Positions 42,493-60,560 of a DNA stretch of 64,000 bases are shown piece by piece (within the stretch, counting starts at the first letter, position 1; each line of letters starts with the position of its first letter). The notes under the pieces are model-generated. The model had not been told where the DNA came from. It did not search any database and saw only the letters and a program-made list of their open reading frames with translations. Position numbers and translations under genes: made by a program. The stretch is from Lachnospiraceae bacterium (GTDB lineage Bacteria > Bacillota > Clostridia > Lachnospirales > Lachnospiraceae), in the NCBI GenBank assembly GCA_017624855.1, contig JAGAMF010000005.1, forward strand, positions 248,001 through 312,000. The letters are read 5' to 3'.

Positions 42493-42501
42493 TGCTATAA
42501 T
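42493..42501 (+). promoter_or_regulatory. Extended -10 promoter of the Ter island
   Basis: TG-C-TATAAT (-10 at 42496-42501) without a clear -35 box, 71 bp before the first gene of the island. A short AGCAA/TTGCT inverted repeat overlaps it, so regulation by a bound factor is possible. Confidence 0.5.
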
Positions 42502-42572: not shown

Positions 42573-45551
42573 ATGGGGTTATTGGAAATTGCAGCATGCG
42601 TCGAAGAGTATGAGGAATTAAAAAATGACTTGAAGCGGGAAGTGTGCGGCCAGGACAAGGTAATAGAAGAGGTTGTTGATGCAATTGTCAACAGTGAGGT
42701 GTATGAAAAGAAATCAGATTTCAGACCTAAGGGGATGTTCTTGTTTGCGGGACCTCCCGGTGTAGGTAAAACTTTCCTTGCAGAAAAAATTGCAGAGGAA
42801 ATCGGATATTCTTTTAAAAGATTTGATATGAGTTCCTATAATGGCAGGGAAGACGGTAAATTGGCAATGTTCGGTATGGACGGTGCATGGAAGAATTCCA
42901 AGGAAGGAACACTTCTTGAGTTTGTGTATTCCCAAAAGGGCAGACCTTGCATTATTTTGTTGGATGAATTCGAAAAGGCTCATCAGGAAGTAATTTTACA
43001 ATTCTTACAGATCCTTGAAAGCGGCAGATGCGAGTCTATCTATTTGAAGGGATGCAGAGGTAACAGCGAAAAGGCAAGCAAGTTGGCGCCGGATGTTGCG
43101 GCACGACCGGATGAGGCGTCATTTGCCAATGTTATTTTTTTCTTTACCACCAATGCGGGACGGTCTTTGTATGAGAACGGAAAACAGCCTTCGCCGGACC
43201 TTACCAAGGATGTTATTATTGATGCGATTCGTTCGGATATTAATCCGGAAACCAAAACACCGTATTTCCCGGATGCGATTTTATCGAGATTGCAGACCGG
43301 AACCGTTGTGATGTTCCGCCACTTAAATACAAATGAGTTGTTGAATATCGGTAAATGGGAATTTGAGAAAAATATCAGGGAAATCAGAAGAAGATATCAG
43401 CTTGATATTGATGTGGAAGATAATATACTTCCGCTTTTGTTGTTGCGTGAAGGCGGTCAGGTTGATGCCCGTAACTATCGTAAAATCGCAGAATCATTTT
43501 TGCGTGAAGAAATTACAAGGCTTGCAGTGTCTTTAAGACAGGAAAAGCTGGATGTAAAAAAAATACATATTGGCGTGGATCCTGACGAGAAGGAAGCGCT
43601 TTTTGAGTTAATGTTCGGTGAGCAACAGGAGCAGGAAGTTGTTTTTGTGTGCGAAGATGAGGCAAAATTGCGTATCATCATGAGCTTATTAAAGGATGTA
43701 GAAGGCGTTAAAATCAAGAAGACCACCGACTATGAAGAAGCCCTTTCCATGGTAAAAGATGATGTATTCAATACTCCCTTGGTTTTTGCTATCATGCCTT
43801 CCATTAAGAACAGCGGAAGTCTTACCATGGATTCTTCCAACAATATGTTGCAGTCAAGAAAACTAAAGAATTTCAGGACTTTTATTGAAGATATCAAGGC
43901 TTTTAATGAAAAGGCCAACATTTGTGTCATCGGCTTGGAGCATTTGACAAACGAAACCAAGAAAGAGCTTTTGACAAAAGGCGCAACGGATATCATTGAT
44001 TACAACGCAAGTATTGATATAAAAAGCCTTGTGGAAAAGAAAGTTGAGGTTCTCAGTTTAAACAGCATGGCCTTTGAATTTGCAAGAAAAGGTAAGGCGC
44101 TTAAATTCGATATCGTTCCTTTGGTAGAGCAAGGAGTGGCTTATATTCGCCTTCGCTTCTTTGAAAAGATTGACAACATCAAAGGTGCTGACGGTGAATT
44201 CCTGGTTGGACAGGAAAGAATGCCGAATGTGTCTTTTGATATGGTTGTGGGTGGAGAACGCATCAAAGAAGAAGCGGCCGATTTTATCAGTTTCTTACAG
44301 AATCCCAAGTCTTTCGTGAAAAAAGGCTTGAGTGCGCCCAAGGGCTTGTTGTTCTACGGACCTGCCGGTACCGGTAAGACATATATGGCAAAGGCAATCG
44401 CCCATGAGGCGGGAGTTCCTTTTATTGCTACCAACGGTGGTGATATAAAAATGGGTCGCGAAAATAAGAGCGGAGCCGAACTTTTGAAAAAATATTTTGC
44501 CATAGCAAGAAAATATGCGCCGGCTATTTTATTTATTGATGAAATGGAAACCATCGCATTGAACAGAACCGGAGCGGACACCTATGCGGATACGCTGGTA
44601 AATACCCTTCTTAGCGAAATGGACGGCTTTGAAGGACATGACAGTAATCCGGTTGTGGTAATCGGTGCAACCAACGCAGGTATTGACAGAGAACATCATG
44701 TGGATGGCAGATTTTTGGACCCTGCCGTTGTAAGAAGATTTACCCGTAAGTTCTTTGTGGATGTTCCCATAAAAGAAGAGCGATTGATTCATTTGGCTAA
44801 GAGAACCGGTTTATCAGAACAGGAATTGGAAACTGCGGCGCAAATGAGTCAGGGATTAAGTTTCGGTAAAATTAACAATGCTGTTGAAATTGCCAAAAGA
44901 CTTGCTGTGCGCGAAGGAAGAGCGTTGCAGAAAGAAGATGTGGAAAATGCGGTAGAAACCGAAAACTATGGCGAAGCCAGAGAGAGAAATCCCGAAAGCA
45001 AAATAAGAACCGCATATCATGAAGCGGGACATGCTTGTATCGGTTGTCTGGTTGGCGGTGCATTAATGCCCGATCATGCTACCATTGTATCCCGCGGTGA
45101 TTTTGGCGGTTATGTAGGAATTGCCGGCGATGAAAAGGGTGTTTGCCTCAGTAAAGAATTCATGGAGAATCGCGTGCGCATGGCACTTGCCGGAAGATGT
45201 GCAGAAGTGATTCACTATGGCATGTATGACGGCTTGACAGCAGGACCGTCTTCAGATATCAAGACGGCGTACCACACTATTTACAGAATGGTTTGTCATT
45301 TGGGTATGGATGAGGAAGTCGGAATGGCATATTATGCAGATCCTTTTGACAGCAATACAAACGAGTATACACATTTGCCGGAAAAGATACAGAATCGTAT
45401 CAATGAATTACTTACCAAGCATTATAACGAAACCATGTCAATGCTTAAGGATAACATGGAATTGTTTGAAGAGATTGCGCAGGCATTGCTTGAAAAGGAA
45501 TCATTGGGTAAAAGCGATCTGGAGGCTATTGCGCAGAAATATAAGAACTAA
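42573..45551 (+). CDS. ClpB-like AAA / receiver-like / FtsH-like AAA-M41 protease
   Basis: A 992-residue soluble protein. Residues about 20-345 form a ClpA/ClpB D2-type AAA module (Walker A GPPGVGKT 60-67, Walker B ILLDEFEKAH). Residues about 355-490 look like a CheY-type receiver fold without a clear phosphoacceptor. Residues about 560-790 form an FtsH-type AAA module (second Walker A GPAGTGKT near 596, FIDEME, LDPAVVRRF). The C-terminus is an M41 zinc peptidase with HEAGH near 817 and the third-ligand Asp in GPSSDIKTAY. There is no membrane segment, unlike FtsH, and the usual aromatic pore-loop motif is not evident. It is the first gene of the Ter island and so a probable ATP-driven protease of the stress system. 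Confidence 0.88.
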   Translation: MGLLEIAACVEEYEELKNDLKREVCGQDKVIEEVVDAIVNSEVYEKKSDFRPKGMFLFAGPPGVGKTFLAEKIAEEIGYSFKRFDMSSYNGREDGKLAMFGMDGAWKNSKEGTLLEFVYSQKGRPCIILLDEFEKAHQEVILQFLQILESGRCESIYLKGCRGNSEKASKLAPDVAARPDEASFANVIFFFTTNAGRSLYENGKQPSPDLTKDVIIDAIRSDINPETKTPYFPDAILSRLQTGTVVMFRHLNTNELLNIGKWEFEKNIREIRRRYQLDIDVEDNILPLLLLREGGQVDARNYRKIAESFLREEITRLAVSLRQEKLDVKKIHIGVDPDEKEALFELMFGEQQEQEVVFVCEDEAKLRIIMSLLKDVEGVKIKKTTDYEEALSMVKDDVFNTPLVFAIMPSIKNSGSLTMDSSNNMLQSRKLKNFRTFIEDIKAFNEKANICVIGLEHLTNETKKELLTKGATDIIDYNASIDIKSLVEKKVEVLSLNSMAFEFARKGKALKFDIVPLVEQGVAYIRLRFFEKIDNIKGADGEFLVGQERMPNVSFDMVVGGERIKEEAADFISFLQNPKSFVKKGLSAPKGLLFYGPAGTGKTYMAKAIAHEAGVPFIATNGGDIKMGRENKSGAELLKKYFAIARKYAPAILFIDEMETIALNRTGADTYADTLVNTLLSEMDGFEGHDSNPVVVIGATNAGIDREHHVDGRFLDPAVVRRFTRKFFVDVPIKEERLIHLAKRTGLSEQELETAAQMSQGLSFGKINNAVEIAKRLAVREGRALQKEDVENAVETENYGEARERNPESKIRTAYHEAGHACIGCLVGGALMPDHATIVSRGDFGGYVGIAGDEKGVCLSKEFMENRVRMALAGRCAEVIHYGMYDGLTAGPSSDIKTAYHTIYRMVCHLGMDEEVGMAYYADPFDSNTNEYTHLPEKIQNRINELLTKHYNETMSMLKDNMELFEEIAQALLEKESLGKSDLEAIAQKYKN

Positions 45552-45615: not shown

Positions 45616-47706
45616 ATGGCGAAATTAACACCATCTAACAAAGCAAAAATATTCAGACAATTGAATGAGAGAAATCTGCCTTGGCCGGATTCGAAATTTA
45701 TATTTACTACCGACAATGATTACGAATGGCTGGGAAGCGGCGGCTTTTCCGAGGTGGTCGTAATGGAGGACTGTGAGAATCCTGACATTCAGTATGCCGT
45801 AAAAGTAATCGGTTTAAGCGAGCACAGAAGAGTTCACAGTACCGATATCAAGGCATATAAACAGGAGCCGGTATTGCAGTCTGAATTGGCAAAGCATTGC
45901 CAATCTGTAGTAAAGATTATCGACACGGAAGTACTGTATATTAAGATTAACAATAATTGTGAAATCGAAGATGTTAAGATGTCTACCTTTGAAGGGGACA
46001 TTACAGGATGGCTTGTTCTTGTTATGATTAAAATGGAACGATTGACTCCTATTGTTGAACAGAACATCAGTGGCGATTACAGTTTTACCATGGAGAAATT
46101 AAAACAGGCCGATGAAAAGACCGTACTTTCTCTGGCGATTGATATTGCGGAAGCTTTGACTGCTTCTCATAATATGGACATTATGCATAGGGATGTAAAG
46201 CCTGAAAATATCTTTTATGATGAGAAAAGCGGTAAATTCAAGCTGGGAGATTTTGGAATTGCCCGTATTACAAACCAGGGAAGCGCATCTACCAAAGGTG
46301 CGGGAACCATGGGATATGAGGCACCCGAGGTGGCAAACGGCAATGATGAAAAGTACAGTTATCAGGCGGATATTTATTCGTTCGGTATTACATTGTATTT
46401 GATTTTGAATGACTTAAAGTTTCCCGGTTCGGATGAGTACTATGTGAACAGAGCGGTTCAGTATAATCCGGATTCTGAGATTGCACCGCCTGCTCATGGT
46501 TCGCCTCGCTTAAAGGCATTGGTTTGCGATATGATAAAATATCGTGCGGAAGAAAGACCGGTAGCCATGGTGGTTGTGTCGTTAATTTTAAAGCAAATTA
46601 AACTTGAAATGAAACGACAGGAAAAAGCTTTGGACAACAAGGCCGATGCTGTCAATGCGGCTTATCCGGTACCGGATTTCGGCCCGGTAAAGAGCGATGG
46701 TTTTGGGGCGCCTTCTGTTGAAGCGGGCGTAAAACCCGGTTCGTCTGATGCAATGCCGGTGCATAAGGATGCGATGCCGAATACATCGTACAGTATGCCC
46801 GTTCATGCGCAAGCTACAGGGGCTGTGCTTCGTAATGCGGAAGCAAAGCCTGAAAAGAGAGAAGCGAAACCTTTTGTTATGCCTGAGGAAGCGGAAACTA
46901 AAATTTACAGGCGTGAGGATTTGGAAACAGTGGATCAAACCACATATAATAAGCAAAAAGAGGCATCCGCTCCCACGAAGGAAATTACGAAAAAAGAGGC
47001 TATTCTGTTTGGTATTATGATGTTTGCCGTTCCTTCCGTAATCGCTATGTTTGTGGGTTTACTGTTCCTTCGGATTGTAACGCAGGATGTTCAGAGTGCT
47101 CAAGTAGGCAATGTTACTTTTATATCTTTGATTGTATACAGTGTCTTTGCGGTTGTTGCTATGCTTCGGGAGCAAATCAAGCGGAAGGATATGCCTTATT
47201 TTATATATTTTCTGTTAAGCGTTTCTGCCGTTGTGGTTCTTTTTATAGACGGTGCGAATTGGTTGTATGTGGTTTTGGCGGTTGCTTTGTTGTTTGCCAG
47301 AAATGCGCAGATTTTGGCGATTTTGTTGGCTATGTGGGTATCGATTATACTGCCGAAGCTTGCGTTTGCGGAAAGCGTTTACGGATTCTGCAATGAGAAA
47401 TATGCGTGGATTTTTTATTTGATTCTGTTGCTGGGATTTTGGGGAACGGAATTTTGGCATAAAAAAGACGATATGCTGGGCGTTCTTTTATATGAACCGG
47501 TTGGAATGCTTTTCATTGGTGTTCTGTCCATCGTATTTGGTATTGTCACATCGGTATTGAAGTTAATTCCTGCTATATCGGTGGCAAGCATTTTTACGGG
47601 AATGCATCCAATCTGGGTTGGCGTGATTTTGTTGGTAATCAGCTTTTTTGCAGTAACATCAACAGAAGGGGGAAAATCAAAAAATGGAAACAGCGCGAAA
47701 TCTTAG
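45616..47706 (+). CDS. Ser/Thr protein kinase with C-terminal membrane domain
   Basis: A 696-residue Hanks-type kinase. The catalytic domain (about 30-335) has the glycine loop LGSGGFSEV, AVKVIG, HRDVKPEN near 191, DFGIA near 212 and APEVA. A charged Ala/Pro/Met linker (about 340-455) follows, then six or seven hydrophobic helices (about 460-690). The usual order, with an extracellular sensor after one helix, is absent; the sensor is probably the membrane part. It overlaps the phosphatase gene by 23 bp, so kinase and phosphatase are coupled. Confidence 0.92.
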   Translation: MAKLTPSNKAKIFRQLNERNLPWPDSKFIFTTDNDYEWLGSGGFSEVVVMEDCENPDIQYAVKVIGLSEHRRVHSTDIKAYKQEPVLQSELAKHCQSVVKIIDTEVLYIKINNNCEIEDVKMSTFEGDITGWLVLVMIKMERLTPIVEQNISGDYSFTMEKLKQADEKTVLSLAIDIAEALTASHNMDIMHRDVKPENIFYDEKSGKFKLGDFGIARITNQGSASTKGAGTMGYEAPEVANGNDEKYSYQADIYSFGITLYLILNDLKFPGSDEYYVNRAVQYNPDSEIAPPAHGSPRLKALVCDMIKYRAEERPVAMVVVSLILKQIKLEMKRQEKALDNKADAVNAAYPVPDFGPVKSDGFGAPSVEAGVKPGSSDAMPVHKDAMPNTSYSMPVHAQATGAVLRNAEAKPEKREAKPFVMPEEAETKIYRREDLETVDQTTYNKQKEASAPTKEITKKEAILFGIMMFAVPSVIAMFVGLLFLRIVTQDVQSAQVGNVTFISLIVYSVFAVVAMLREQIKRKDMPYFIYFLLSVSAVVVLFIDGANWLYVVLAVALLFARNAQILAILLAMWVSIILPKLAFAESVYGFCNEKYAWIFYLILLLGFWGTEFWHKKDDMLGVLLYEPVGMLFIGVLSIVFGIVTSVLKLIPAISVASIFTGMHPIWVGVILLVISFFAVTSTEGGKSKNGNSAKS

Positions 47707-48571
47707 GATAACTGCTTTTTCAGATAAAGGAGCAACACGAAGCAATAATGAAGACAATCTGTATGTAAGTTGCTGGCCTCTTATAAATCCTCTGTCGTTG
47801 GATTCGGTAGAAGCCTCCGAGACGGTTGAATATACATCCGATTGGTTTGTTGCCGCGGTTTTTGACGGAATGGGTGGGGCTGATGACGGTGAACTGGCCT
47901 CTCTTTGTGCTGTCCGATTTATGCCCTCATTGGTAGAAAAACTTGCCCGAAAAGATGAGTACACTCAGGCGGAATTGCAGGATATTCTTCACGAAAGCAA
48001 GACTGAAATCGAAAGCGAAATTCGTAAAGAAGCAACGAATGAGCAGGGGCAAACGCCGGGCACGACCTGTTGTGGATTTGCCATGAAAGACGGATGGCTT
48101 GTGCCTTTTTGGATTGGGGACAGCCGTATGTACCTTCTTCGAAAAGAGAAGCTGTATTTGATGACCAAGGACCATACTGTGGCGCAGGAAAAAATCGACC
48201 AAGGTGAGGTGTCGGAGAATGAAGCCAAAACACTTCGTTCCTGGCATTATATTACTGCGTACATCGGAGATGAGCGTACGGATTTTGCCGTAGACAAAGG
48301 CTTTGCCTTAGAACCCGGAGATAAAATTTTATTGTGTACGGACGGTGTGTCGGACGAATTTACAGACGGACAGATTGCAGATTATATGGTGCAGCCTTAT
48401 GAAGAAGCCAAGGAAGAAATGCTCAATAAAATTCGCGAGTCCGGAGATGATAACGCAACGGCTCTTTTAATTGAGTATATTTCCGAGGAAGAGCAGAAAA
48501 GTGCCGGAGTAAAAAGGATAGAGCGTTTGAAGGAGAATATGTTAAATCTCTTTACAAACAAATTAAAATAA
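47684..48571 (+). CDS. PP2C-type Ser/Thr phosphatase
   Basis: A 295-residue cytoplasmic PPM phosphatase. Metal-binding motifs are intact: SNNEDNLYV near 20, FDGMGGADDGE near 62, GTTCCGF, WIGDSRMY, CTDGVSDEF and GDDNATALL. It should reverse phosphorylation by the overlapping upstream kinase. Its start lies inside the kinase frame, after a GGGGG ribosome binding site. Confidence 0.95.
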   Translation: METARNLRITAFSDKGATRSNNEDNLYVSCWPLINPLSLDSVEASETVEYTSDWFVAAVFDGMGGADDGELASLCAVRFMPSLVEKLARKDEYTQAELQDILHESKTEIESEIRKEATNEQGQTPGTTCCGFAMKDGWLVPFWIGDSRMYLLRKEKLYLMTKDHTVAQEKIDQGEVSENEAKTLRSWHYITAYIGDERTDFAVDKGFALEPGDKILLCTDGVSDEFTDGQIADYMVQPYEEAKEEMLNKIRESGDDNATALLIEYISEEEQKSAGVKRIERLKENMLNLFTNKLK

Positions 48572-48620: not shown

Positions 48621-49724
48621 ATGAAATATTCACACGAAGATTTGGTAAGGGTAGCCAAAAGACAAAATAATAATAAAAGAGGCTATCTGGTAGTCAATCC
48701 CATGCAGGGAAAACATGTGCCGGTATCCCCGGGCAATGCGCTGCGCTTATTTGATGATTTGGCAAAAGTTGTGGAAAACGAATTTGGCGACGATAAGCTT
48801 CTGGTAATCGGCTTTGCGGAAACGGCCACTGCAATCGGAGCGCAGGTGGCGATTTCTTTAAACGCCAAATATATTCAAACCACAAGGGAAATTATTCCGA
48901 ATGTTGATTATATCTATTTTTCGGAAGCTCACAGCCATGCTACGGAGCAGAAGCTGGTAAAAGATGACATGGATGCGGTTATAAAGGAGATTGACCGCAT
49001 TGTATTTGTGGAAGATGAGGTAACAACCGGCAATACCATTATGAATATCATTACGATTTTGCGTAGGATGTATTCACAGGAAATTCAATTTTCTGTTTTA
49101 TCATTATTAAACGGTATGGATGAGTCGGCATTGAAAAAGTATGAAGAACAGGGGATTTCAGTCTTTTATTTATTGAAGACCAACCATGAAACTTATGACG
49201 AAATTGCCAATACTTTTGCCGGAGACGGAGTGTATCATGATTGCAAGGACAAAGTTTCCGAAGCGCCGTTTGTATTTTATAATGTGGAAGGTAAGCTGAA
49301 TCCCAGAAGGTTATTGGATTCCAAAGTCTATGACGAAGCCAATCAAAAACTTGCCCAAGCCGTTATGGGACGGTTCTCTTTTGAGAAGTCACAACGGATA
49401 TTGGTAATAGGCAGTGAAGAGTGTATGTACCCGGCTTTGTTTGTGGGCAGCAGGATTGAAGAAGCAGGCTGCGTTGTGAAGTGTCACTCCACGACCAGAA
49501 GCCCCATAGAAGTAAGCAGTGAAGATACATATCCCTTGAAAGCCAGATATGAATTAAACAGTTTATACGACCGTGAGCGGAGGACTTTTATTTATAATTT
49601 GGACAAGTATGACTGTGTTATTGTAATTACGGATTCGGAGCTGAAGGAACAAGAGGGACTTTTATCTCTTATAAGTGCGTTAGCCCTTCAGAACTCGAAT
49701 ATCAGTGTGTTTAGGTGGTATTAG
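48621..49724 (+). CDS. Phosphoribosyltransferase with TRSP domain (Ter biosynthetic module)
   Basis: A 367-residue protein. The N-terminal part (about 15-215) is a type I phosphoribosyltransferase with the PRPP loop VFVEDEVTTGNT near 130. The C-terminal TRSP domain (about 225-367) contains the name-giving sequence TTRSPI near 295. In Ter operons this protein belongs to a conserved pathway thought to make a nucleoside-like metabolite. It lies 49 bp after the phosphatase and runs into the StiP gene. Confidence 0.88.
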   Translation: MKYSHEDLVRVAKRQNNNKRGYLVVNPMQGKHVPVSPGNALRLFDDLAKVVENEFGDDKLLVIGFAETATAIGAQVAISLNAKYIQTTREIIPNVDYIYFSEAHSHATEQKLVKDDMDAVIKEIDRIVFVEDEVTTGNTIMNIITILRRMYSQEIQFSVLSLLNGMDESALKKYEEQGISVFYLLKTNHETYDEIANTFAGDGVYHDCKDKVSEAPFVFYNVEGKLNPRRLLDSKVYDEANQKLAQAVMGRFSFEKSQRILVIGSEECMYPALFVGSRIEEAGCVVKCHSTTRSPIEVSSEDTYPLKARYELNSLYDRERRTFIYNLDKYDCVIVITDSELKEQEGLLSLISALALQNSNISVFRWY

Positions 49725-49729
49725 GAAGA

Positions 49730-50779
49730 ATGAGAAGTTCGTATAAAAAAGAAGATGTAGTGCTTTTACTGAAAGACATTACAGGTATGGTGGAGCCTCA
49801 GTCTACGCAAGAGAGGGAGAAACTGATACAGTCAGGAAAGCATTACAGTGAAATGTTACCCATAGAATATGTGCCTACAGATGTGTATATGAAAGTGTAC
49901 AAATCGGCGTTGGAAAAATACTCCGGGGATGTGGCTCGGGCGGTAGGCGTACTGGCCGGAAAAATTATTGATAAAAGAGGCAAAGATGTGGTTCTCGTAT
50001 CTTTGGCAAGAGCCGGTATTCCCATCGGAATCTTGCTGAAAAGATATATTGCGAAGAAATACAATTTGGATTTGCCCCATTATTCGATCTCTATTATTCG
50101 CGGCCGCGGCATCGATAACAATGCCATGGAATATCTGCTTGAAAGATATGAGCCGCACAGGTTATTGTTCGTAGACGGCTGGATTGGCAAGGGTGCAATT
50201 TTAAATGAATTAAAAAAAGACATTTCGGCGTATGAAGGTGTTTCGCCGGAAATCGCAGTTGTGGCAGATCCGGCCAATGTGACGGATTTGTGCGGTACCC
50301 ACAAAGATATTTTGATTCCCAGCTCCTGCTTAAACAGTACGGTTTCCGGACTGGTAAGCAGAACTTTTTTGCGGGATGATATTATCGGCAAAGATGATTT
50401 TCACGGAGCTGTTTTTTATGAGGAATTAATGGAATCGGATTTGTCCTATGAATTCATTCATGCCATTGAGAAGGAATTCGACATGGATAATTCCGTAAAA
50501 GAAGAAATGGTGGAAGGCTGTGGAATTGATGAAGTAAGAAAAATTGCCGAGGAATACGGCGTTTCGGACATCAATTTGGTAAAACCGGGAATCGGGGAAG
50601 CGACCCGCGTGCTATTGAGAAGGGTTCCCTGGAAGGTATTGATTGACGAAAGATATATGGATGATCCTCAATTGGAGCACTTGGTCAGACTGGCTGAAGA
50701 GAAAGGGGTTCCGGTGGAATCTTATCCCATGGTGCACTACAAGTGCTGCGGAATCATCAAAAAAATGGCAGATGCATAA
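49730..50779 (+). CDS. StiP-type phosphoribosyltransferase-like protein (Ter module)
   Basis: A 349-residue protein of the StiP family, described in Ter operons as a phosphoribosyltransferase-like domain that may also act as a cysteine protease. Visible blocks are VLVSLARAGIPIG near 88 and LLFVDGWIGKGAI near 143. The C-terminal part (about 250-349) contains conserved-looking HYKCCGIIKKM. The ATG at 49730 has AGGA close upstream; a GTG at 49715 is the alternative. It is tightly packed between the TRSP and ATP-grasp genes. Confidence 0.82.
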   Translation: MRSSYKKEDVVLLLKDITGMVEPQSTQEREKLIQSGKHYSEMLPIEYVPTDVYMKVYKSALEKYSGDVARAVGVLAGKIIDKRGKDVVLVSLARAGIPIGILLKRYIAKKYNLDLPHYSISIIRGRGIDNNAMEYLLERYEPHRLLFVDGWIGKGAILNELKKDISAYEGVSPEIAVVADPANVTDLCGTHKDILIPSSCLNSTVSGLVSRTFLRDDIIGKDDFHGAVFYEELMESDLSYEFIHAIEKEFDMDNSVKEEMVEGCGIDEVRKIAEEYGVSDINLVKPGIGEATRVLLRRVPWKVLIDERYMDDPQLEHLVRLAEEKGVPVESYPMVHYKCCGIIKKMADA

Positions 50780-50788
50780 GGATAAAAT

Positions 50789-51793
50789 ATGACAAGAATA
50801 TGGTTTAATCATTGGTTTAGTACATCCTACGGTTTGATTGAGATATTAAAAAGTGATTCGGAGCTGGATGCTTATGTTATTGCGTCAAATAAACAGCGAG
50901 ACTCCGTGATTCAAAAAGTATGCGATGAATGGTATGACGAGCCTTTGACAGAAGGCGAAGAGTATGTCAGAGATTGCATTGCATTCTGTAAGGAACACAG
51001 CGTTGATGTGTTTGTTCCGCGAAATCAAATGGTGGAAATCAGCAAAAACAAAGCCCTCTTTTATGAAATCGGTGTGAAAGTGCTGGTGGACGAATATGAC
51101 ATAATCGACCTGCTTAACAATAAAGCGGAAACATACGATTATTTTAAAAAGATTGGCGGCATTAACATTCCGGAATATGAAGTGGTAACCGATGCGGCTA
51201 TGTTTGAAAAGGCATATAAAAGCTTGCAGAAAAACCACGATAAATTATGTGTAAAATTCGTAAATGACGAAGGTGCAAAAAGCTTTCGCCGCATCGTGGA
51301 AGAAATCGATATTTTTGCCGGATTGAAAAATTATCGGCGGATGGATGTTACATATGAGGAATATCTGAGAGCATTAAAAACCGTGGATTCTTTTGATGAG
51401 TTAATGATTATGCCTTATATGCCGGGACCGGAAATCAGTGTGGATTGCTTAAAAACCGCAAGCGGGTTGATTGCCGTACCCAGAATCAAAAGCGAGTCGC
51501 GGCATGAGAATATTGTGTTTGATGAAGAGATTTTAAGGCAGACTCAAGTTGTTATGGAGCATGTTCAATTGGAGTGCCCCTGCAATGTGCAATTCAGAAT
51601 GGAAAACGGTATGCCGTATTTGTTGGAAATCAACACGCGAATGTCCGGCGGCCTGCAAATGAGCTGTCTGGCGAAAGAAATTAATATTCCGGCCATTGCC
51701 ATTCATAAACTGTTAGGCAGAGATATGGCTTGGTCTATGGATATAACCCCCAGAGTGGTTTCGCATATCGAAATTCCCAAGGTGATTCGATAA
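50789..51793 (+). CDS. ATP-grasp ligase (Ter biosynthetic module)
   Basis: A 334-residue ATP-grasp enzyme. A Rossmann-like N-terminal part (1-100) precedes the nucleotide-binding part (LCVKFVNDEGAKSF near 150) and the metal-binding end (FRMENGMPYLLEINTRMSGG near 270-290). It should form an amide or similar bond in the pathway with the two preceding proteins. The start lies 9 bp after the StiP stop with AAGGA upstream. Confidence 0.88.
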   Translation: MTRIWFNHWFSTSYGLIEILKSDSELDAYVIASNKQRDSVIQKVCDEWYDEPLTEGEEYVRDCIAFCKEHSVDVFVPRNQMVEISKNKALFYEIGVKVLVDEYDIIDLLNNKAETYDYFKKIGGINIPEYEVVTDAAMFEKAYKSLQKNHDKLCVKFVNDEGAKSFRRIVEEIDIFAGLKNYRRMDVTYEEYLRALKTVDSFDELMIMPYMPGPEISVDCLKTASGLIAVPRIKSESRHENIVFDEEILRQTQVVMEHVQLECPCNVQFRMENGMPYLLEINTRMSGGLQMSCLAKEINIPAIAIHKLLGRDMAWSMDITPRVVSHIEIPKVIR

Positions 51794-51931
51794 GTCATAA
51801 AAAATCAGGATAAATAATCTGCTTGCAAGGTTGAGACGGATGTATTATTCTATTTTATAATCACAGGCGTTTTGCATGTGGGAAAACAATGTTTTAAACA
51901 TAATTTATAGTGTAAAAGGGAGGTAAACGTT

Positions 51932-52492
51932 ATGTTTGATAAGGCAACCAAAACAGTACAAGAAATGGGAGAAAATGTATTTGATTCGGCGAAGAAGGTT
52001 GGAAACAGCATTTACAACATTTCAAAAGAGCAGAGCGAAATTGCCGGCTTAAAAGTACAGAAGGCAATGGTGGAGAAAAAGCTTCAGGAGTATTATGCTG
52101 CAATCGGTAAGAGATATGTGGAATACATTAAAGCCGCTTCCACAGATGCTTTTGATGTAAGCGATATCCTTGATGAAATGCAGGCAGATAAGACTAAGTT
52201 GGAAGGAATCGAAGAAAGTCTTGCGGAAAAAGAGATTAATGCCAAGAAAGCGGAAGAAGCACGCAGAGAACAGAAGGCGTTGGAAGCTTTTGAAGAAGGT
52301 AAGGCTAAATTGGATAAGGCGTTGGCGTTGGATATCATTACTGTTGAAGAATACAGTGATAAATTGGCTTCCATTCAGAAGAAGTATGACAATCACGAAC
52401 AGCTTAGAAAGATTGACATGCAGTTACAGATGGGAATCATTACCAAGGAAGAGCATAAATTAAAGATTGAAAAGCTTTTAAACGGTAACTAA
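51932..52492 (+). CDS. Coiled-coil protein with SHOCT-like C-terminus
   Basis: A 186-residue charged helical protein. Residues about 35-110 form a coiled coil (MVEKKLQEYYAAIGKRY, then EESLAEKEINAKKAEE). The C-terminal part holds two short-helix units, ALDIITVEEYSDKL and QMGIITKEEHKLKI, each of SHOCT-like form, often used for oligomerisation. GGGAGG precedes the ATG, 138 bp after the ATP-grasp gene. It may be an adaptor in the system. Confidence 0.7.
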   Translation: MFDKATKTVQEMGENVFDSAKKVGNSIYNISKEQSEIAGLKVQKAMVEKKLQEYYAAIGKRYVEYIKAASTDAFDVSDILDEMQADKTKLEGIEESLAEKEINAKKAEEARREQKALEAFEEGKAKLDKALALDIITVEEYSDKLASIQKKYDNHEQLRKIDMQLQMGIITKEEHKLKIEKLLNGN

Positions 52493-52508
52493 TTTTATGA
52501 ATTATAAA

Positions 52509-52543
52509 ACGGACATATCGGTAAGATATGTCCGTCTTTTTTT
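52509..52543. terminator. Bidirectional terminator inside the Ter island
   Basis: A perfect 11-bp stem ACGGACATATC/GATATGTCCGT, loop GGTAA, T7 tail, between convergent genes. It overlaps the minus-strand stop by two bases. Confidence 0.9.
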
Positions 52544-53504
52544 ATTCTTCTATACCAAAAGCTTCTGCCAGATACATTGTTTTATGTGCCCAATTCACAT
52601 GGGTTTTATATTCGTTCATTCGCTCCTTGGATTCGCTTCCGCAAACAAGGGAATCGGAATCTTTATTCCAGCCCAGTATGCTTTGCGCATCATTGTAATC
52701 GGCGCGGGATACCCGGTAGGTTTTGTTAACCACCTCAATTTGTTTGGGGTGAATAACGGTTTTGCCGGTAAAACCGCACAGCTGATCATCTTTAATTTCC
52801 GCAATCAGGCCTTTTTCCCAGTTGTCACCGGAATAGTATTCCCAAACGGGACCGGATACCACATAATCCGTTCCGTATATGGTAATCATATCGGAAAAGA
52901 TGTTCGCAATCGGTCGAATTCTGTGGATGGATTCGTCGGAATGGCGACGGAATCCGAAAACATGACACAAATCATTGCCGCCCACGCGGATGTTAAGAAC
53001 CAGGTCTTCAACCTTGGCGAGAGAATCTTTTAATTCGTATAACAATTCATAACGGGTGTTCAGGTTGATGATAGTGGAGCTTTCGTAAATGGGCATCATG
53101 TACAGCTTCTTGTTTGCAATTTCATTCGCCCGAATAATTTCGTTGATATATGTACCGGAAGTTTCAAGGCAAAACTTCGGAATGATAAAACCGGTAATGA
53201 CGGAAATGCTTTCGCCCAGTGCCAGAGTCAAGCGGACAATCTGCTCGGGAACTCTTACCCTTATGAAAATTTTGGGAAGATAAAAGGACTTTTCCTTGGA
53301 GCTGATATAAATTTTATTTATAGATTCTACCAAATCCTGTTCTGCCTCAGCGACAAATTTATCGTTTATGGTATCTTCCAGGCACAGTGCCAGTGAGAAC
53401 TTTGTGCCAAAACTTTCGTTAATGATAGAATCTGCGATGCTTTTTTTGTTGGCCGGGCAATAAAGCAAGGCGCCTACGCTGTAGTATAAAACATCATTTT
53501 TCAT
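52542..53504 (-). CDS. HpcH/CitE-like aldolase (Ter biosynthetic module)
   Basis: A 320-residue TIM-barrel protein of the HpcH/HpaI-citrate lyase beta type. Typical blocks are LALCLEDTI near 38, FIRVRVPE, FIIPKF, PIYESSTI, RVGGNDLCHVFG and KTVIHPKQI. Such proteins cleave or form carbon-carbon bonds in acyl-CoA-like or keto-acid substrates; in Ter operons they accompany the phosphoribosyltransferases. AAGGGG lies ten bases before the ATG. It is the only minus-strand gene of the island and is divergent from the YceG-trypsin gene. Confidence 0.85.
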   Translation of the reverse strand: MKNDVLYYSVGALLYCPANKKSIADSIINESFGTKFSLALCLEDTINDKFVAEAEQDLVESINKIYISSKEKSFYLPKIFIRVRVPEQIVRLTLALGESISVITGFIIPKFCLETSGTYINEIIRANEIANKKLYMMPIYESSTIINLNTRYELLYELKDSLAKVEDLVLNIRVGGNDLCHVFGFRRHSDESIHRIRPIANIFSDMITIYGTDYVVSGPVWEYYSGDNWEKGLIAEIKDDQLCGFTGKTVIHPKQIEVVNKTYRVSRADYNDAQSILGWNKDSDSLVCGSESKERMNEYKTHVNWAHKTMYLAEAFGIEE

Positions 53505-53648
53505 TTTAAAATTACCCCTTTTTAAAACTGATACGATAAAAGCGTATCGAAGTGAAGTATAACACATTTGTTTTATGAAAGATAGACTAAAAAGTACAAA
53601 TGTGGTAAAATCACAATTATTACACAAATAAAGGCGGTGTGGGTTGTT

Positions 53649-55142
53649 ATGACCGATTTGACATACAGACATAACATTATGGGAATCAATTCTTTGGACT
53701 TTTTTATTGGTATAAAAGGCGGAGTGTCCAACGGCGTCAGAGATGTATATTTTGTCCGAATGCTGGGGGAAAATACATCTTTATTATCTGATGTAACAAC
53801 GCTGGATGAATGTATGTACCGTGAAATGAAAAACGGCATAAAAAAATACCACAGAATCAATTCGTTACCGGTGCCCACAGATGCGAAAGATGCCGAAAAA
53901 TATGGGGGAATCTACGCAAAGTGGCAGGCGGAGAGAACGATAGAATTTGCGGGAAGAAATTTGTCGCCGGATTTGGAGCAGTGTATGGCAACCGCCTGTA
54001 CACGCATTGTAGAGTATTATACCCAAAGTAAAGGCAATGCGTCGGAAACCATGATTAAAAATCTTGTGGTTAAAATTTTCTACTGGTTTGACCAAATTGA
54101 CCGGGCTGTTTTTACCAATTGGGATGATAAAAGCAATATAAAAATAATCGCAAGTAATGTTATAAAAGACCATGAGTATCTTTTTTGTCTCTTTTTGACT
54201 TTTTTGGGGTGTGATGTGCTCCTGATACAGAATCAAAAAGATGTGGTGGTAGCGGATGCCTTAAAGGCATTCAGCAAGGAATTTGTAATCGGCGGATTCG
54301 GAAACGGTAAGCTCGGTGAGTACAATCCTGCGATCCTTGAACGAAAGTATGCAGACATGCAGCGTGCTGCCGAAACCAACCGTACGATGAATAACATCAA
54401 TGTGTCTGCTGCTTCCAATACGGTAAGCGGAAATAACATGAACTCCGGCGGTATGAACCGACTTGTGATACCGGAGCATCCCGGTAGAAAGAAGACACCG
54501 GCGCCGGCGGCTCCGGCGGTGGGGAATATAAGAAGCGGCAATGCATCGACAGCAAATCAGGGCAGACGGGAAAAGAGCTTTGAGGAACTGGCGCAGTTGG
54601 CGGCATCTATTGTTTTGATTGCCATTCACGATTCCACCGGCGAAGTAATCGGTACGGGATCGGGCATTATGATTGGCAGAAACGGATACATATTAACCAA
54701 CAATCATGTTGCTTCCGGCGGAAGATTTTACAGTGTCCGCATAGAAGACGACGATCAGGTTTATAAAACCGGGGAAGTGATTAAATACAACCCTTCTACG
54801 GATTTGGCGGTTATCCGTATTGACAGGGTTCTGGAACCGTTGCCGATTTATAACGGCAAGGATAAGCTTGTGAGGGGACAGAAGGTTGTGGCCATCGGAA
54901 GTCCTTTGGGATTGTTTAATTCCGTATCCGACGGTATTATTTCCGGCTTCCGTAAAATTAACGATGTAGACATGATACAGTTTACTGCCCCCATATCCCA
55001 CGGAAGTTCCGGCGGCGCGGTGCTGAATATGTACGGAGAAGTTGTGGGAATCAGTACGGCCGGCATTGACAGCGGGCAGAATATCAACCTGGCAATCGGC
55101 TATGAAAATATCTTGCCTTTTGCAGGCGGTTTTATGAAATAA
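53649..55142 (+). CDS. YceG-like domain fused to a trypsin-like serine protease
   Basis: A 497-residue protein. Residues about 1-225 resemble the YceG-like proteins of Ter operons (KIFYWFDQID, LTFLGCDVLLI) and share this pattern with the 55873 gene. A low-complexity Asn/Pro/Ala linker follows (about 230-300). The C-terminal domain (about 305-497) is an S1-type protease with a complete triad: His353 in NNHVA, Asp385 in STDLAVI and Ser454 in HGSSGG. No signal peptide or membrane helix is seen, so it is probably intracellular. The ATG at 53649 is preferred over GTG at 53637. Confidence 0.88.
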   Translation: MTDLTYRHNIMGINSLDFFIGIKGGVSNGVRDVYFVRMLGENTSLLSDVTTLDECMYREMKNGIKKYHRINSLPVPTDAKDAEKYGGIYAKWQAERTIEFAGRNLSPDLEQCMATACTRIVEYYTQSKGNASETMIKNLVVKIFYWFDQIDRAVFTNWDDKSNIKIIASNVIKDHEYLFCLFLTFLGCDVLLIQNQKDVVVADALKAFSKEFVIGGFGNGKLGEYNPAILERKYADMQRAAETNRTMNNINVSAASNTVSGNNMNSGGMNRLVIPEHPGRKKTPAPAAPAVGNIRSGNASTANQGRREKSFEELAQLAASIVLIAIHDSTGEVIGTGSGIMIGRNGYILTNNHVASGGRFYSVRIEDDDQVYKTGEVIKYNPSTDLAVIRIDRVLEPLPIYNGKDKLVRGQKVVAIGSPLGLFNSVSDGIISGFRKINDVDMIQFTAPISHGSSGGAVLNMYGEVVGISTAGIDSGQNINLAIGYENILPFAGGFMK

Positions 55143-55201
55143 ATCATAAAAAATCCCCTATGCTAAGATATGGCAAATTGTGAAACGGCAAGGGCTGTGC
55201 T

Positions 55202-55230
55202 ATTGAAAAAGGCACTTTCGTGTGCTATAA
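55202..55230 (+). promoter_or_regulatory. Promoter of the rhomboid gene
   Basis: TTGAAA (55202-55207), a 17-bp spacer and an extended TG-C-TATAAT -10 (55225-55230). It opens a second transcription unit covering the TelA and TerD genes. Confidence 0.8.
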
Positions 55231-55267
55231 TATTTTTGGTAAAAAATCGTTTTGTGCGAGGTGTTTT

Positions 55268-55858
55268 ATGAGCGGGGAAAAGAAGAAATTAAAGTTATCG
55301 TTTAATTCTCCCATTGTGTTGGGATTTACGATACTGTGTGTGGTTGTTTTAATTGTGGATATGTTGACTTTGGGTGCATCTACCAATGCATTGTTCAGCG
55401 TGTATCGTTCTTCGCTGTTGAATCCTCTTACATATATTCGTTTCTTTGGACATGTGCTTGGACATGCAGACTGGAGCCATTTCTTCGGAAACATCATGAT
55501 GCTTTTGGTGGTTGGACCGCTTTTGGAGGAAAAGTACGGTTCTTCCAATATTTTGTTTGTAATACTTACCACCGCTTTTGTTACGGGACTGACTAATTTC
55601 ATATTCTTTCCCAATATTCAGCTGCTTGGTGCAAGCGGAGTGGTATTTGCATTTATTTTACTGGCATCCATGACCAGTATAAAAGAAGGCAAGTTGCCCT
55701 TGACATTTATATTGGTGGCGGTGTTGTACATAGGGGAACAGATTTATAGCGGAATTTTTATTCATGATAATGTATCTAACCTCACACATATTATAGGCGG
55801 TGCGGTTGGTTCTGTACTGGGATATATCATGAATAAGAATAAGATGAACAGATATTGA
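55268..55858 (+). CDS. Rhomboid-family intramembrane serine protease
   Basis: A 196-residue membrane protease with six hydrophobic helices. The catalytic Ser123 lies in GASGVV, the catalytic His174 in NLTHIIGG, and HADWSHFFGNIMML (67-80) is the family signature. It cleaves membrane proteins near helix boundaries. GCGAGGTG lies before the ATG at 55268. It is followed 14 bp later by the large YceG-like gene. Confidence 0.92.
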   Translation: MSGEKKKLKLSFNSPIVLGFTILCVVVLIVDMLTLGASTNALFSVYRSSLLNPLTYIRFFGHVLGHADWSHFFGNIMMLLVVGPLLEEKYGSSNILFVILTTAFVTGLTNFIFFPNIQLLGASGVVFAFILLASMTSIKEGKLPLTFILVAVLYIGEQIYSGIFIHDNVSNLTHIIGGAVGSVLGYIMNKNKMNRY

Positions 55859-55872
55859 GGTGAGAACGGCTT

Positions 55873-58149
55873 ATGTTAGAACACAAAAAGATTCGTAGCC
55901 TTAACGACTTTTTTGTGGATTTACAGAATCGTCAAAGCAAAGAAGTTTATTTCTACAGAATAAACGGATATTCTGAGGAAATAGGTGCTTTTATAAAAAA
56001 ATACTATGATGTTGCCAGACGGACGGGAGTTGTGTTGGAAGGTAAAATTCCCAATCCGGATGAGAAAAATCTTGCTTACTACAATGAGATTATGGGTATG
56101 CAGTTTCAGATGAGTGCCGCTTTTATAGAGGCGAGTCTGAAAAAATGGTTGCCCAGAATGACTGATTTTCAGAGGCAGACCGTGGCATCGGCGATTTATG
56201 ATTCACTGGATTCCATGCGTAAGACAGGCAAGACGGAGAATATGCTTAAAAATGCGTATATCAAGTATATGTGTTGGCTGTATTATAAATTTGAACGCAT
56301 TGTGAATCAGTTGGGTGAGAACAATGTACCGAAGATTTTATATGAGGGCGACATCAGCAATTATGAATTGATGCTGATTTCCATTTTGTCCAATGCAGGT
56401 TGCGATGTTGTAATGTTGCAATATAACGGTGATGATGCATATATGAAACTGGATCCGCAGTCAAAGTTATCGGATAATCTGGTTATGAACGGGATGGGAA
56501 GCTTTCCGGCAGGATATTCCGTTAAGGCGGTAAGAGAAGCACAGCAGGAAGAAATGAAAACGGCACACTTATATGGAGCCATGCCTGCGGTGAATAATTG
56601 CACAAACGCATGGATTTCCGGGAAGATACTGGAAGATATTCAGCAGAGCATTGCAGTTCGCGGAAATGACACAAATTTCTTTTATAATTGTTTCTGCCGC
56701 ATGAACGGTGCCGACGATAAGTTAACATATCCCAATGAACTTTATCAGATGCATCAGGCAATAAAAAATGCCGGGCGCAAGGTTGTAATTGTAAACGGTG
56801 AAATTCCTAAGCCCACCAATGATGAAATCACCGGGATCAAAAGAGGTAATTACGCCAAGTTCGAACAACTGGTTATGGATTTGGCAAACAATATAAAATA
56901 TACGGCAAACCCTGAACTGCAAAAGATTATGAATAAGGCGTTTGTGGATTTGATGATAGCCGAGAACAAGAAAGATGCATCAAATCTGAACCGTTTAACC
57001 AACAAGGCAGTATACATATTATGTTGGTTAAAACGATATATGCCCATGTTGTTTCAAAACTGGAAACAACCGGAGATTTCATGTTTTATCTATATGGGTG
57101 GCTGTAAAAACGAGAACGAAGCACTTTTTATGAAGTTGCTGGCAAAACTTCCCGTGGATGTATTAATCCTGTGCCCGAATCTTAACTTTAAGTGTTGCTT
57201 AGAGGATAGTGTATTGTACGAGGCGAATTATACGGAAAGCATCGTAATGGATAAATTCCCTGAGCAGAATACGCAGTTTAGAATCGGAACCGCCGCATAT
57301 CACGCAGAGCGGGAGCTGGATACATTGATGTATCAGGATACAGGCTTGTATCGTAATCAGCAGTACGGTAAAGCTAATGCAATTACGCTTCAGACCATGT
57401 ATGAGGAAATTAAGATTTTATGGGATCAGGAGCTGAAGTACAGACCGAATTTCAGTACGGCTGACGGAGTGGTTAACATTCCCGTTATATTTGCTAAGGT
57501 CTCAGGAGTTAAAAACGGTCAGTTGCCGCAGTATTGGGTATCCATCAAAGAACTCATGACCCCGGATACGTTTTTGATTACCAGAGTTCCTTTTATACAA
57601 CCCGCATCGCCGAACCCCATGAAGAGTTACGCGACGGAGTTTTATAAAAACGGCAAATTACAAAAAAATACAATTAAAAATCATCCAAAATACCCTTACG
57701 GTATTTTGCGTGAAGAAATGCAGGACTTCCTGCTGGATAAATTAGAACTTTTGATTCAACAGAAATTGATTAAAGGTATTGGGGAGAACGGAACCGAGTA
57801 TACCGTAATTGCTCAGGTTTTGAATTTACCGAAAGATATGGTTCGTATGATTCAGAAGTTCGATTTTACCAAAAAGAATCCCAAGCTGGTATATGTAAAT
57901 ACCACAGAGAATGTGATATCCCTCGAGGATTCGATTATGGTTGCTTTTCTGAATTTGATTGGATTTGATGTGGTATTCTTTGTTCCCACCGGATATCAAA
58001 GTGTAGAGAAGCATTTTAACAAGAAACTAATGGAAGAGCATCAAATCGGCGAATACAAATACGATTTGGAGATGCCGGATTTGAAAACGATTCCATTAAA
58101 TAGTCCGCGCCCTAACTGGCGTGATAAAATATTTAAGAGAGGTAATTAA
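55873..58149 (+). CDS. Large YceG-like protein of the Ter island
   Basis: A 758-residue soluble protein. It appears to contain two related YceG-like units: about 60-220 (MCWLYYKFERIVNQ, LSNAGCDVVMLQYNGDD) and about 340-470 (ILCWLKRYMPMLFQNW, LAKLPVDVLILCPN), plus a C-terminal unit near 680 (LNLIGFDVVFFVP). The same pattern occurs once in the trypsin fusion protein. Proteins of this kind accompany TelA and TerD in Firmicutes, but their activity is unknown. GAGGTGAG precedes the start; the stop abuts the telA start. Confidence 0.8.
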   Translation: MLEHKKIRSLNDFFVDLQNRQSKEVYFYRINGYSEEIGAFIKKYYDVARRTGVVLEGKIPNPDEKNLAYYNEIMGMQFQMSAAFIEASLKKWLPRMTDFQRQTVASAIYDSLDSMRKTGKTENMLKNAYIKYMCWLYYKFERIVNQLGENNVPKILYEGDISNYELMLISILSNAGCDVVMLQYNGDDAYMKLDPQSKLSDNLVMNGMGSFPAGYSVKAVREAQQEEMKTAHLYGAMPAVNNCTNAWISGKILEDIQQSIAVRGNDTNFFYNCFCRMNGADDKLTYPNELYQMHQAIKNAGRKVVIVNGEIPKPTNDEITGIKRGNYAKFEQLVMDLANNIKYTANPELQKIMNKAFVDLMIAENKKDASNLNRLTNKAVYILCWLKRYMPMLFQNWKQPEISCFIYMGGCKNENEALFMKLLAKLPVDVLILCPNLNFKCCLEDSVLYEANYTESIVMDKFPEQNTQFRIGTAAYHAERELDTLMYQDTGLYRNQQYGKANAITLQTMYEEIKILWDQELKYRPNFSTADGVVNIPVIFAKVSGVKNGQLPQYWVSIKELMTPDTFLITRVPFIQPASPNPMKSYATEFYKNGKLQKNTIKNHPKYPYGILREEMQDFLLDKLELLIQQKLIKGIGENGTEYTVIAQVLNLPKDMVRMIQKFDFTKKNPKLVYVNTTENVISLEDSIMVAFLNLIGFDVVFFVPTGYQSVEKHFNKKLMEEHQIGEYKYDLEMPDLKTIPLNSPRPNWRDKIFKRGN

Positions 58150-58150
58150 T

Positions 58151-59317
58151 ATGGCACTTGATTTTAGCAAAACAACAACAATGGCACCGTCGGCCACCAC
58201 TACAGCTGCTGTTCCTGCGCCTGTTCAGACAGAAGAATTAGCGGTTGTGGAGCAGTATGATATTGTTGCCGACAGAGAGAGCATGAACGCTCAGTTGGTT
58301 AATTCCGAAGAAGTTGATCGTCTTGTAAGTACAATCGAAATCAATAATTTGGAGACCATTGTATCATTCGGTTCGGAAGTTGCGGATGAAATTTCCAAGG
58401 CATCCGATATCGTATTGAACAGTATGGATATGTCTCAGCTTGATGATACAAGCGAGCTGTTAAGCGTATTGGCAAAGATTATGGGTAAGTTTGATATTGA
58501 AGAAATCAAAGACAACCCCAGCTTATTCGGAAAGCTTTTCGGTAACTTAAAGAAACAGCTCGAAAAGATTTTGGCTAAGTATCATACCATGGGCGAAGAA
58601 ATCGATAAGATTTATGTTCAGTTGAAGGGTTATGAATCTGAAATCAAGCAGTCAAATAAGAAATTAAATATGATGTTCGAGGCAAATGTTAATTATTACC
58701 ATGATTTGGTAAAATACATTTTGGCCGGCGAACAGGCTTGCAAGGAAATTGAAGCGTACATTGCTCAGAGACAGAAAGATATGGAAACCACAGGTGACCA
58801 GTCTATTCAGTTCGAGCTTACCAGTTTGAATCAGGCGTTAATGATGATGGAACAGCGTACACAGGATTTGCGTATTGCAGAGAATGTTGCTATGCAGTCT
58901 ATCCCCATGATTAAGACAATGGAATTCAGTAACTATAATTTGGTTAGAAAGATTAATTCCGCATTCATCGTAACACTTCCCGTGTTTAAGCAGGCATTGG
59001 CTCAGGCAATCTTATTAAAGAGACAGAAGGTTCAGGCAGAGTCTTTGGCTGAGCTTGATAAGAAGACCAATGAAATGTTGATTAAGAATGCTCAGAATTC
59101 CGTTGAAGTATCTAAGGCAACCGCTAAGCTTGCTTCCGGTAATTCCATTCAGATTGAAACTCTTGAAACCACATGGCGTACCATTACAAGCGGTATCGAA
59201 GAAACCAAGAGAATTCAGGAAGAAGCAAAGAAGAAGCGTGTTGAAGATCAGGCAAAACTTGAAACAATCAAGGATGATTTCAATAAGATGTATCATATGC
59301 CTCCCGTGAAGAAATAG
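58151..59317 (+). CDS. telA: TelA-family toxic anion resistance protein
   Basis: A 388-residue, largely helical cytoplasmic protein of the TelA/KlaA family (VEQYDIVADRESMNAQLV, KYHTMGEEIDKIYVQL, ITSGIEETKRIQEEAKKKR). Members are linked to tellurite and cell-envelope stress tolerance. GAGAGG lies eight bases before the ATG at 58151, one base past the preceding stop. It stands directly upstream of three terD genes. Confidence 0.93.
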   Translation: MALDFSKTTTMAPSATTTAAVPAPVQTEELAVVEQYDIVADRESMNAQLVNSEEVDRLVSTIEINNLETIVSFGSEVADEISKASDIVLNSMDMSQLDDTSELLSVLAKIMGKFDIEEIKDNPSLFGKLFGNLKKQLEKILAKYHTMGEEIDKIYVQLKGYESEIKQSNKKLNMMFEANVNYYHDLVKYILAGEQACKEIEAYIAQRQKDMETTGDQSIQFELTSLNQALMMMEQRTQDLRIAENVAMQSIPMIKTMEFSNYNLVRKINSAFIVTLPVFKQALAQAILLKRQKVQAESLAELDKKTNEMLIKNAQNSVEVSKATAKLASGNSIQIETLETTWRTITSGIEETKRIQEEAKKKRVEDQAKLETIKDDFNKMYHMPPVKK

Positions 59318-59360
59318 GGTGTGCTGTAGATAGAAATTTTATAAAAGGAGGGAATTTTTT

Positions 59361-59942
59361 ATGCCTATTAATTTATCTAAAGGACAGAAAGTTGATTTAA
59401 CAAAAGGAAATCCGGGATTGAAGAATATTATGGTAGGTCTCGGATGGGATGTGAATGCATTTGATTCAGGTGCTGATTTTGACCTTGACGCTGCTGCATT
59501 CATGCTTGGTGCAAGCGGAAAATGCATCACAGAAAAAGATTTCGTATTTTACGGTAATTTATCACATGTCAGCGGTGCTGTAAATCACATGGGTGATAAC
59601 CTCACAGGTGCCGGCGATGGTGATGATGAGCAGATTCAGGTTGATTTATCTAAGGTTCCTGCGGAAATCGAAAAGATTGCGTTTACCGTTACAATTTATG
59701 ATGCGGATTCCCGTCGTCAGAATTTCGGTCAGGTATCTAACGCTTTTATCCGTTTGGTAGACGAAAGCACAGGAACTGAATTAATAAGATATGACTTGGG
59801 AGAAGACTTCTCTATTGAAACAGCTGTTGTTGTCGGAGAGCTGTATCGTCATAACGGAGAATGGAAGTTTAATGCAATTGGTAGCGGATTCCAGGGTGGC
59901 TTGGCTGCACTTTGCGGTCACTACGGAATTCAGACAGCATAA
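59361..59942 (+). CDS. terD: TerD-family stress protein 1
   Basis: A 193-residue TerD-domain protein. The calcium-binding acidic clusters are intact: [20 protein letters not shown] in the N-terminal half and [12 protein letters not shown] near 90. TerD proteins bind calcium and associate with membrane-linked stress complexes. AAAGGAGGG precedes the start, and 14 bp separate it from the second copy, with which it is nearly collinear. Confidence 0.95.
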
Positions 59943-59956
59943 GGAGGTAAAAAGAG

Positions 59957-60538: not shown

Positions 60539-60560
60539 TTAGGAAGGAGACAGAATCGAT

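Follow-up and report, generated by a model that had tools for sequence, protein, structure and literature searches.

A predicted soluble protease that joins a Clp-type ATPase module, a pseudo-receiver and the cytosolic half of FtsH in a Lachnospiraceae bacterium

The DNA analysed here (the window) is a stretch of 64,000 nucleotides from a Lachnospiraceae bacterium (GenBank assembly GCA_017624855.1, contig JAGAMF010000005.1, positions 248,001 to 312,000 of the forward strand). It contains an open reading frame (ORF) uninterrupted through 992 codons, whose product we call P0001 (Table 1). The ATG is preceded at 7 nt by AAGGAG, and an extended -10 element, TGCTATAAT, lies upstream at 42493-42501, both read by eye. 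As this element follows a terminator-like hairpin, P0001 probably starts a transcription unit. With the whole protein as query, Pfam places AAA_2 at residues 51-226 (6.7e-23), AAA at 592-730 (7e-42) and Peptidase_M41 at the C-terminus; these modules are named here AAA1, AAA2 and M41. No hydrophobic helix was found in P0001, whose Kyte-Doolittle hydropathy maximum over 19 residues is 1.43, as opposed to 2.88 and 2.57 in the two classical FtsH proteins of the same genome. The N-terminal membrane anchor that is a hallmark of FtsH is thus missing, and P0001 is predicted to be soluble and cytosolic. Taken together, its features make it probable that P0001 is a self-contained ATP-dependent protease in which a Clp/Hsp100 motor was fused to the cytosolic half of FtsH.

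Table 1. Position of P0001, its modules and motifs, and the neighbouring genes in the window.
Feature	Position	Strand	Remark
Terminator-like hairpin upstream of P0001	42402..42430	+	
P0001, whole gene, 992 aa: Clp-type AAA, pseudo-receiver, FtsH-type AAA, M41 peptidase	42573..45551	+	
AAA1, Clp/Hsp100 D2-type AAA+ module, residues 1-335 (about)	42573..43577	+	
AAA1 Walker A GPPGVGKT, residues 60-67	42750..42773	+	
AAA1 pore loop 1 with aromatic W106, residues 101-112	42873..42908	+	aromatic in 19/21 family rows
Receiver-fold (pseudo-receiver) domain, residues 354-505	43632..44087	+	
Long beta-hairpin linking receiver and AAA2, residues 509-533	44097..44171	+	predicted, from the model
AAA2, FtsH-type AAA module, residues 548-800	44214..44972	+	
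AAA2 Walker A GPAGTGKT, residues 596-603	44358..44381	+	
AAA2 pore loop 1 without the FtsH aromatic, residues about 622-635	44436..44477	+	
M41 zinc metallopeptidase domain, residues 807-986	44991..45530	+	Pfam 2.8e-34
HEAGH zinc site, residues 816-820	45018..45032	+	HExGH in 19/19 rows reaching there
D895, third zinc ligand by FtsH position	45255..45257	+	Asp in 19/19 rows
Ser/Thr protein kinase, begins 64 bp 3' of P0001	45616..47706	+	Pkinase 5.9e-33
PP2C-type phosphatase, overlaps the kinase gene	47684..48571	+	PP2C_2 5.2e-17
Ter stress-response genes	48621..61166	+	Pfam: PRTase_2-TRSP, StiP-PELOTA, ATPgrasp_Ter; SHOCT-like weak (5.8e-4)

The layout of P0001 is not due to chance, since it recurs in other genomes with its motifs kept at 28.2-33.7% identity. 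In a working table of 21 rows, P0001 and 17 other proteins run from AAA1 through M41 with intact ATPase motifs. One further relative, L257 (8076-10934), has the full layout at 23.0% identity, but its Walker B, the Walker A of AAA2 and the arginine finger are degenerate; as its zinc site (HEAGH and Asp) is intact, it is apparently an ATPase-dead member. L256, which reaches the end of its contig before M41, and L258a, which is the AAA1 portion of a gene that is split, were counted where they reach, and L253, an AAA1-only fragment of genome G556 cut by the contig end, was left out of the counts. A front-part alignment, searched at a threshold of E 1e-70 (P0001's own genome included in each count), matched 5 of the 31 genomes surveyed in the genus, 6 of 392 in the order, 3 of 391 in the class and 3 of 398 in the phylum. 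At a looser limit, 355 of 397 genomes of the bacterial family were matched, nearly all of them Clp background from which G043, G432, G366, G355 and G424 stand out. For the family, order, class and phylum the best three candidates per genome were scored, and the counts are lower bounds. A named collection, of which 80 loci were kept, contributed two members, from an Acetatifactor metagenome-assembled genome (L036) and an uncultured Christensenella (L037). The survey for this domain order that had been proposed in the initial annotation thus returned 17 further intact-motif genes, and neither a known family of the same layout nor an origin as a diverged piece of normal FtsH emerged within what was searched.

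Some relatives depart from this plan. L010 has an extra copy of the FtsH-type AAA, and a 1608-aa protein (L243, 7142-11965) runs from a Clp-type AAA through a receiver segment and a tandem pair of FtsH-type AAA modules to M41. In the genome of P0001 itself, contig C13 bears a paralogue of the same layout (L258, 7285-8709 and 8713-11433) in which a single in-frame TAG separates the Clp-type AAA from the receiver-like region, AAA and M41; it could be a pseudogene, a sequencing error or a two-part protein. Contig C5 of this genome encodes another kind of multi-AAA M41 protein (L259, 9321-13412). It is 1364 aa long, its AAA regions lie around residues 566-658 and 878-1022, its M41 domain occupies 1181-1358, and the aromatic pore residue is likewise missing; kinase and PP2C genes occur in this stretch as well. 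A mobile or phage origin of P0001 was considered and rejected: plasmids gave no match for the front part at 1e-30, none of the 28 phage records with a match reached 80% coverage (in each of the 10 listed the match lies at residues 491 or later), and in two sets of viral loci no single frame combined HExGH with a Walker B string of Clp type (0/80 and 0/49).

The first module belongs to the Clp/Hsp100 ATPases. NCBIfam aligned the front of P0001 with positions 447-715 of the ClpA model, that is, its D2 half (1.7e-34), and the ClpA, ClpB, ClpV, ClpK and ClpG models matched all 12 front parts compared (P0001 and 11 relatives), with the lowest E-values for ClpA and ClpB. P0001 has the D2-type AAA_2 module with an aromatic pore loop that is typical of class 1 Hsp100/Clp proteins; the D1 ring that precedes it in these proteins is absent, and the N-terminus of P0001 is the start of the D2-type module. 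Thus, the Clp kinship implied by the earlier label "ClpB-like" was correct, but Clp/Hsp100 D2-type is a better description, ClpA being the top-scoring Clp model. P0001 has merely 11 residues where its relatives bear N-terminal regions, and no Clp N-domain was found in it. This domain does precede AAA1 in L250, L251 and L256 (profile match 90.2%, E 1.5e-6; controls 0.3% or less; Pfam Clp_N for L250 by itself, 0.06). It does not appear to be common to all relatives: in a comparison covering the relatives other than L248, L255 and L257, the remaining groups gave 0.1-1.0%, and one group (L254, L249 and L258a) reached an unconvincing 27.1% over 25 columns. The IGF/IGL tripeptide for docking to ClpP was not found in P0001 and the pattern is lacking in 20 of the 21 rows, while [LIVM]G[FL] stands at this place in 53 of 56 Clp controls; the remaining row, L252, has a VGL near the arginine finger, by eye not the docking place. 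Because three relatives have the Clp N-domain and the ClpP tripeptide is missing, the front of this family probably descends from a Clp ATPase that gave up ClpP.

The second half is of FtsH type. The NCBIfam FtsH model (TIGR01241) matched it at 2.3e-83, although its 281 bits remain below the equivalog cut-off of 600; none of the NCBIfam matches listed for P0001 (25 of 62) reached its cut-off. As in FtsH, a classic-clade AAA module with Walker A, Walker B and the second region of homology lies immediately N-terminal to M41, which has the HExxH motif (H816, E817 and H820) and the third Asp ligand. The two complete Walker A sites and the intact zinc site (H816-E817-A818-G819-H820, with D895) described in the initial annotation were all recovered, and so was its observation that the second AAA module has no FtsH aromatic: pore loop 1 has F or Y in 25 of 25 canonical FtsH rows and neither in P0001.

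Between the two motors lies a domain that the initial annotation had called CheY-like. Response_reg is the best Pfam match of this segment, under the Pfam cut-off both in P0001 (7.2e-4) and in L036 (1.4e-4); the segment of L037 has no Response_reg match. The assignment is carried by a profile-profile comparison of the central segments of 20 family members with 15 receivers of the same genome, which gave 96.6% (E 4.7e-10), whereas control profiles from AAA1, AAA2 and M41 gave 0.5% or less against the central segment. Folded alone (mean predicted local confidence, pLDDT, 63.5; three sequences), the segment is predicted to have its strands and helices in receiver order, as it does in the full-length model. 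A fold search gave 13 PDB matches at E 0.001 or less, none of them with a query TM-score above 0.44. Ranks 1, 4 and 5 were pilus-assembly, TadZ CheY-like and LuxO receiver structures, and ranks 2 and 3 a designed P-loop fold and an RCK domain, so that the search of this predicted fold does not decide the identity by itself. The acceptor Asp is present in 16 of 20 family rows and missing in P0001, and the conserved Lys and Thr of receivers are found in none of the 20; P0001 has no Asp, Thr/Ser or Lys at these positions. For this reason we call the domain a pseudo-receiver. The earlier suggestion that it might gate the protease finds no support in the usual sense, and a phosphorylation-gated receiver was rejected for P0001; the domain may have a structural or coupling role.

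The two pore loops have had different fates. The aromatic of AAA1 is missing only in L037 and L257, and that of AAA2 is kept in 9 and lost in 11 of 20 rows, P0001 among the latter. With the exception of L257, every row that shows both rings (n=19) has an aromatic in at least one of them, which fits a task common to both rings. In a tree of AAA2-M41 with the pore-loop columns removed and 25 FtsH rows included (C13pep and C5triple were added in the tree only), the family separates from FtsH with support of 98/96 with the C5 protein and 100/99 without it. The state "lost" requires eight changes on this tree, at least three of them forced by well-supported branches; the tree program flagged long branches, that of P0001 included. 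Since all FtsH rows have the aromatic, its repeated loss from AAA2 is the simplest reading. The tree bears also on whether P0001 is just a diverged ordinary FtsH or a misassembly chimera. Its C-terminal half is clearly derived from FtsH, but the full layout stands in 17 other intact-motif genes apart from the FtsH rows and P0001 has no membrane helix, which leaves such an explanation hardly credible. The architecture proposed at the outset, with AAA modules of two clades, a receiver fold and M41 but no membrane helix, is backed by the profiles, the relatives, the tree and a 992-residue structure model.

In the working that we propose, P0001 would assemble as a hexamer with stacked rings. AAA1, the Clp-type ring, would bind ATP, grip the substrate through the pore-loop aromatic W106, unfold it and push it through a tier of receiver-fold domains serving for coupling or spacing; the substrate would then reach AAA2, the FtsH-type ring, and be cut in the M41 chamber. 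As AAA2 has kept its ATPase motifs and lost the FtsH grip, it is probably a gate, a spacer or a slow conveyor. Several observations weigh against this scheme. The complementarity of the two loops is not significant, as 1 and 10 losses in 19 rows would give about 0.5 double losses and none was seen; with the AAA2 aromatic retained in nearly half of the rows, such a sharing of tasks does not hold throughout the family. In L257 both rings are degenerate while the zinc site is intact. The branch of P0001 is long (2.29) and carries a long-branch warning, which makes its place inside the family unsure. Moreover, the model is of a monomer, its predicted TM-score (pTM) of 0.57 does not fix the relative placement of the domains, and its receiver part depends on three sequences.

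The genes around P0001 and some of its relatives hint at a possible tie of the family to phosphosignalling. In addition to the kinase and PP2C genes downstream of P0001, PP2C and kinase genes lie upstream of L250 and L251 (L250 also has FHA-kinase and kinase-WD40 genes), and L037 is followed by a vWA gene and a kinase, with a possible PP2C by reading that has no Pfam match. No gene resembling the kinase or PP2C of the window was found in the contexts of the remaining relatives, in a search that also missed the L037 kinase and in which several contexts were short. P0001 could be a regulated signalling protease, its M41 ring making limited cuts at specific sites of one partner (e.g. a Ter protein or the product of the neighbouring kinase or phosphatase gene), with AAA rings that serve recognition and assembly and not processive degradation. 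These neighbours, the missing AAA2 grip and the retention of the zinc site alone in L257 speak for it. However, AAA1 retains the motifs of a threading motor, aromatic included, and the kinase of the window was not seen in the other contexts fetched; we consider this reading unlikely. For the threading protease, the substrates would perhaps be proteins of the adjoining kinase, phosphatase and Ter genes. Small YbjN-type proteins adjoin the protease in L247 (7581-7985, 3.8e-12) and, more weakly, in L249 (11943-12461, 2.8e-4, just under the Pfam cut-off), and are possible substrate adaptors.

Within the Ter region, further Ter-type ORFs have homologues in other Ter loci; we take its genes to include a CitE-like gene (minus strand), trypsin-like, rhomboid-like and YceG-like genes, TelA and three TerD. 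The trypsin-like gene (53637-55142) has a partial PADLOC match to RT-Protease_XI (6e-17), and together with P0001 and the rhomboid-like gene (55220-55858, by reading) it brings three protease types inside 14 kb. None of the 11 other Ter (TRSP) loci of the bacterial family, some truncated by contig ends, has an ORF with HExGH or any gene that matches the protease, kinase or PP2C of the window. P0001 as a core component of the Ter system was therefore rejected, and its link with Ter genes is seen in its own genome only.

Upstream of P0001, an Abi_2/AbiD-like gene (41317-42267) has 30.1% G+C, as opposed to 40.2% for the window, and is flanked by a 52-nt direct repeat (41030-41081 and 42383-42434, 96% identical) containing the terminator-like hairpin; the gene before the first copy is presumably lysS. 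The Abi_2/AbiD-like gene looks like an inserted defence gene. The Abi_2 protein, the kinase and the protease might act jointly against phages, given the PADLOC matches of the Abi_2 protein to AbiD (1.4e-24), of the kinase to mad6 (2.2e-38) and PD-T4-6 (1.7e-26), and of AAA2 and AAA1 of P0001 to IetA (1.5e-35) and DolB (3.7e-19), together with the patchy distribution of the layout. Against such a conflict module, each match of P0001 spans one AAA domain and none the whole layout, the NCBIfam anti-phage ATPase model is far below its cut-off (98.6 of 510 bits), and the Abi_2 gene is set off by its hairpin, low G+C and repeats as a separate insertion. We regard a joint defence function as quite improbable.

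The usual AAA+ proteases consist of a motor with a separate peptidase, as in Clp, or of a membrane-anchored chain of motor and peptidase, as in FtsH. By its sequence, P0001 would be an AAA+ protease, a known kind, with an unusual architecture. The early claim of a new protease architecture stands as far as the layout recurs in other genes and no published description of such a chain was found in the open-access literature, itself weak evidence of absence; gating by the central domain is the part that, in the usual sense, lacks support. More tentatively, and with somewhat less than even confidence, the family might form a distinct class of AAA+ proteases, in which a single chain combines its own zinc peptidase with motors from two clades that are coupled by a pseudo-receiver tier. 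Gripping would have passed from the FtsH ring to a Clp ring that was captured, and the FtsH ring would have dropped it several times independently. If so, these proteins would offer a naturally occurring test of how pulling and gating are divided between stacked AAA+ rings. The hybrid would allow one to test which ring pulls, whether coupling is possible between motors of two clades, and in what way substrate is supplied to a peptidase ring that has no grip of its own; in one genome, such a protease lies beside kinase, phosphatase and Ter stress genes.

Compared with FtsH and the m-AAA and i-AAA proteases (TIGR01241, M41), P0001 lacks the membrane anchor and carries a receiver and a Clp-type ring ahead of its FtsH-type half, and it falls short of FtsH both in its pore loop and in its model score. 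Another relative by FtsH-type kinship is found in the FtsH ternary systems (Kaur et al. 2020, PMC7159879), in which a protein with two FtsH-type AAA domains, the first inactive, has MoxR-vWA partners, and some partner proteins contain ClpN repeats; section 21 of that article mentions no M41 peptidase or receiver for the two-AAA protein. With ClpA and ClpC, the Hsp100 ATPases paired with ClpP, P0001 shares the D2-type module and, through L250, L251 and L256, the Clp N-domain, and two stacked rings with a peptidase would be a common working principle. It differs from them in a second ring of the FtsH clade, in a peptidase that is fused and a zinc enzyme, and in the absence of both the ClpP-docking tripeptide and the Clp D1 ring. 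In Cdc48/p97 the protease is separate and the first ring comes from another clade than AAA1 of P0001. Nevertheless, Cdc48 is a precedent for a double ring in which one ring has lost the aromatic, and a published account (PMC5511170) describes its artificial restoration as lethal.
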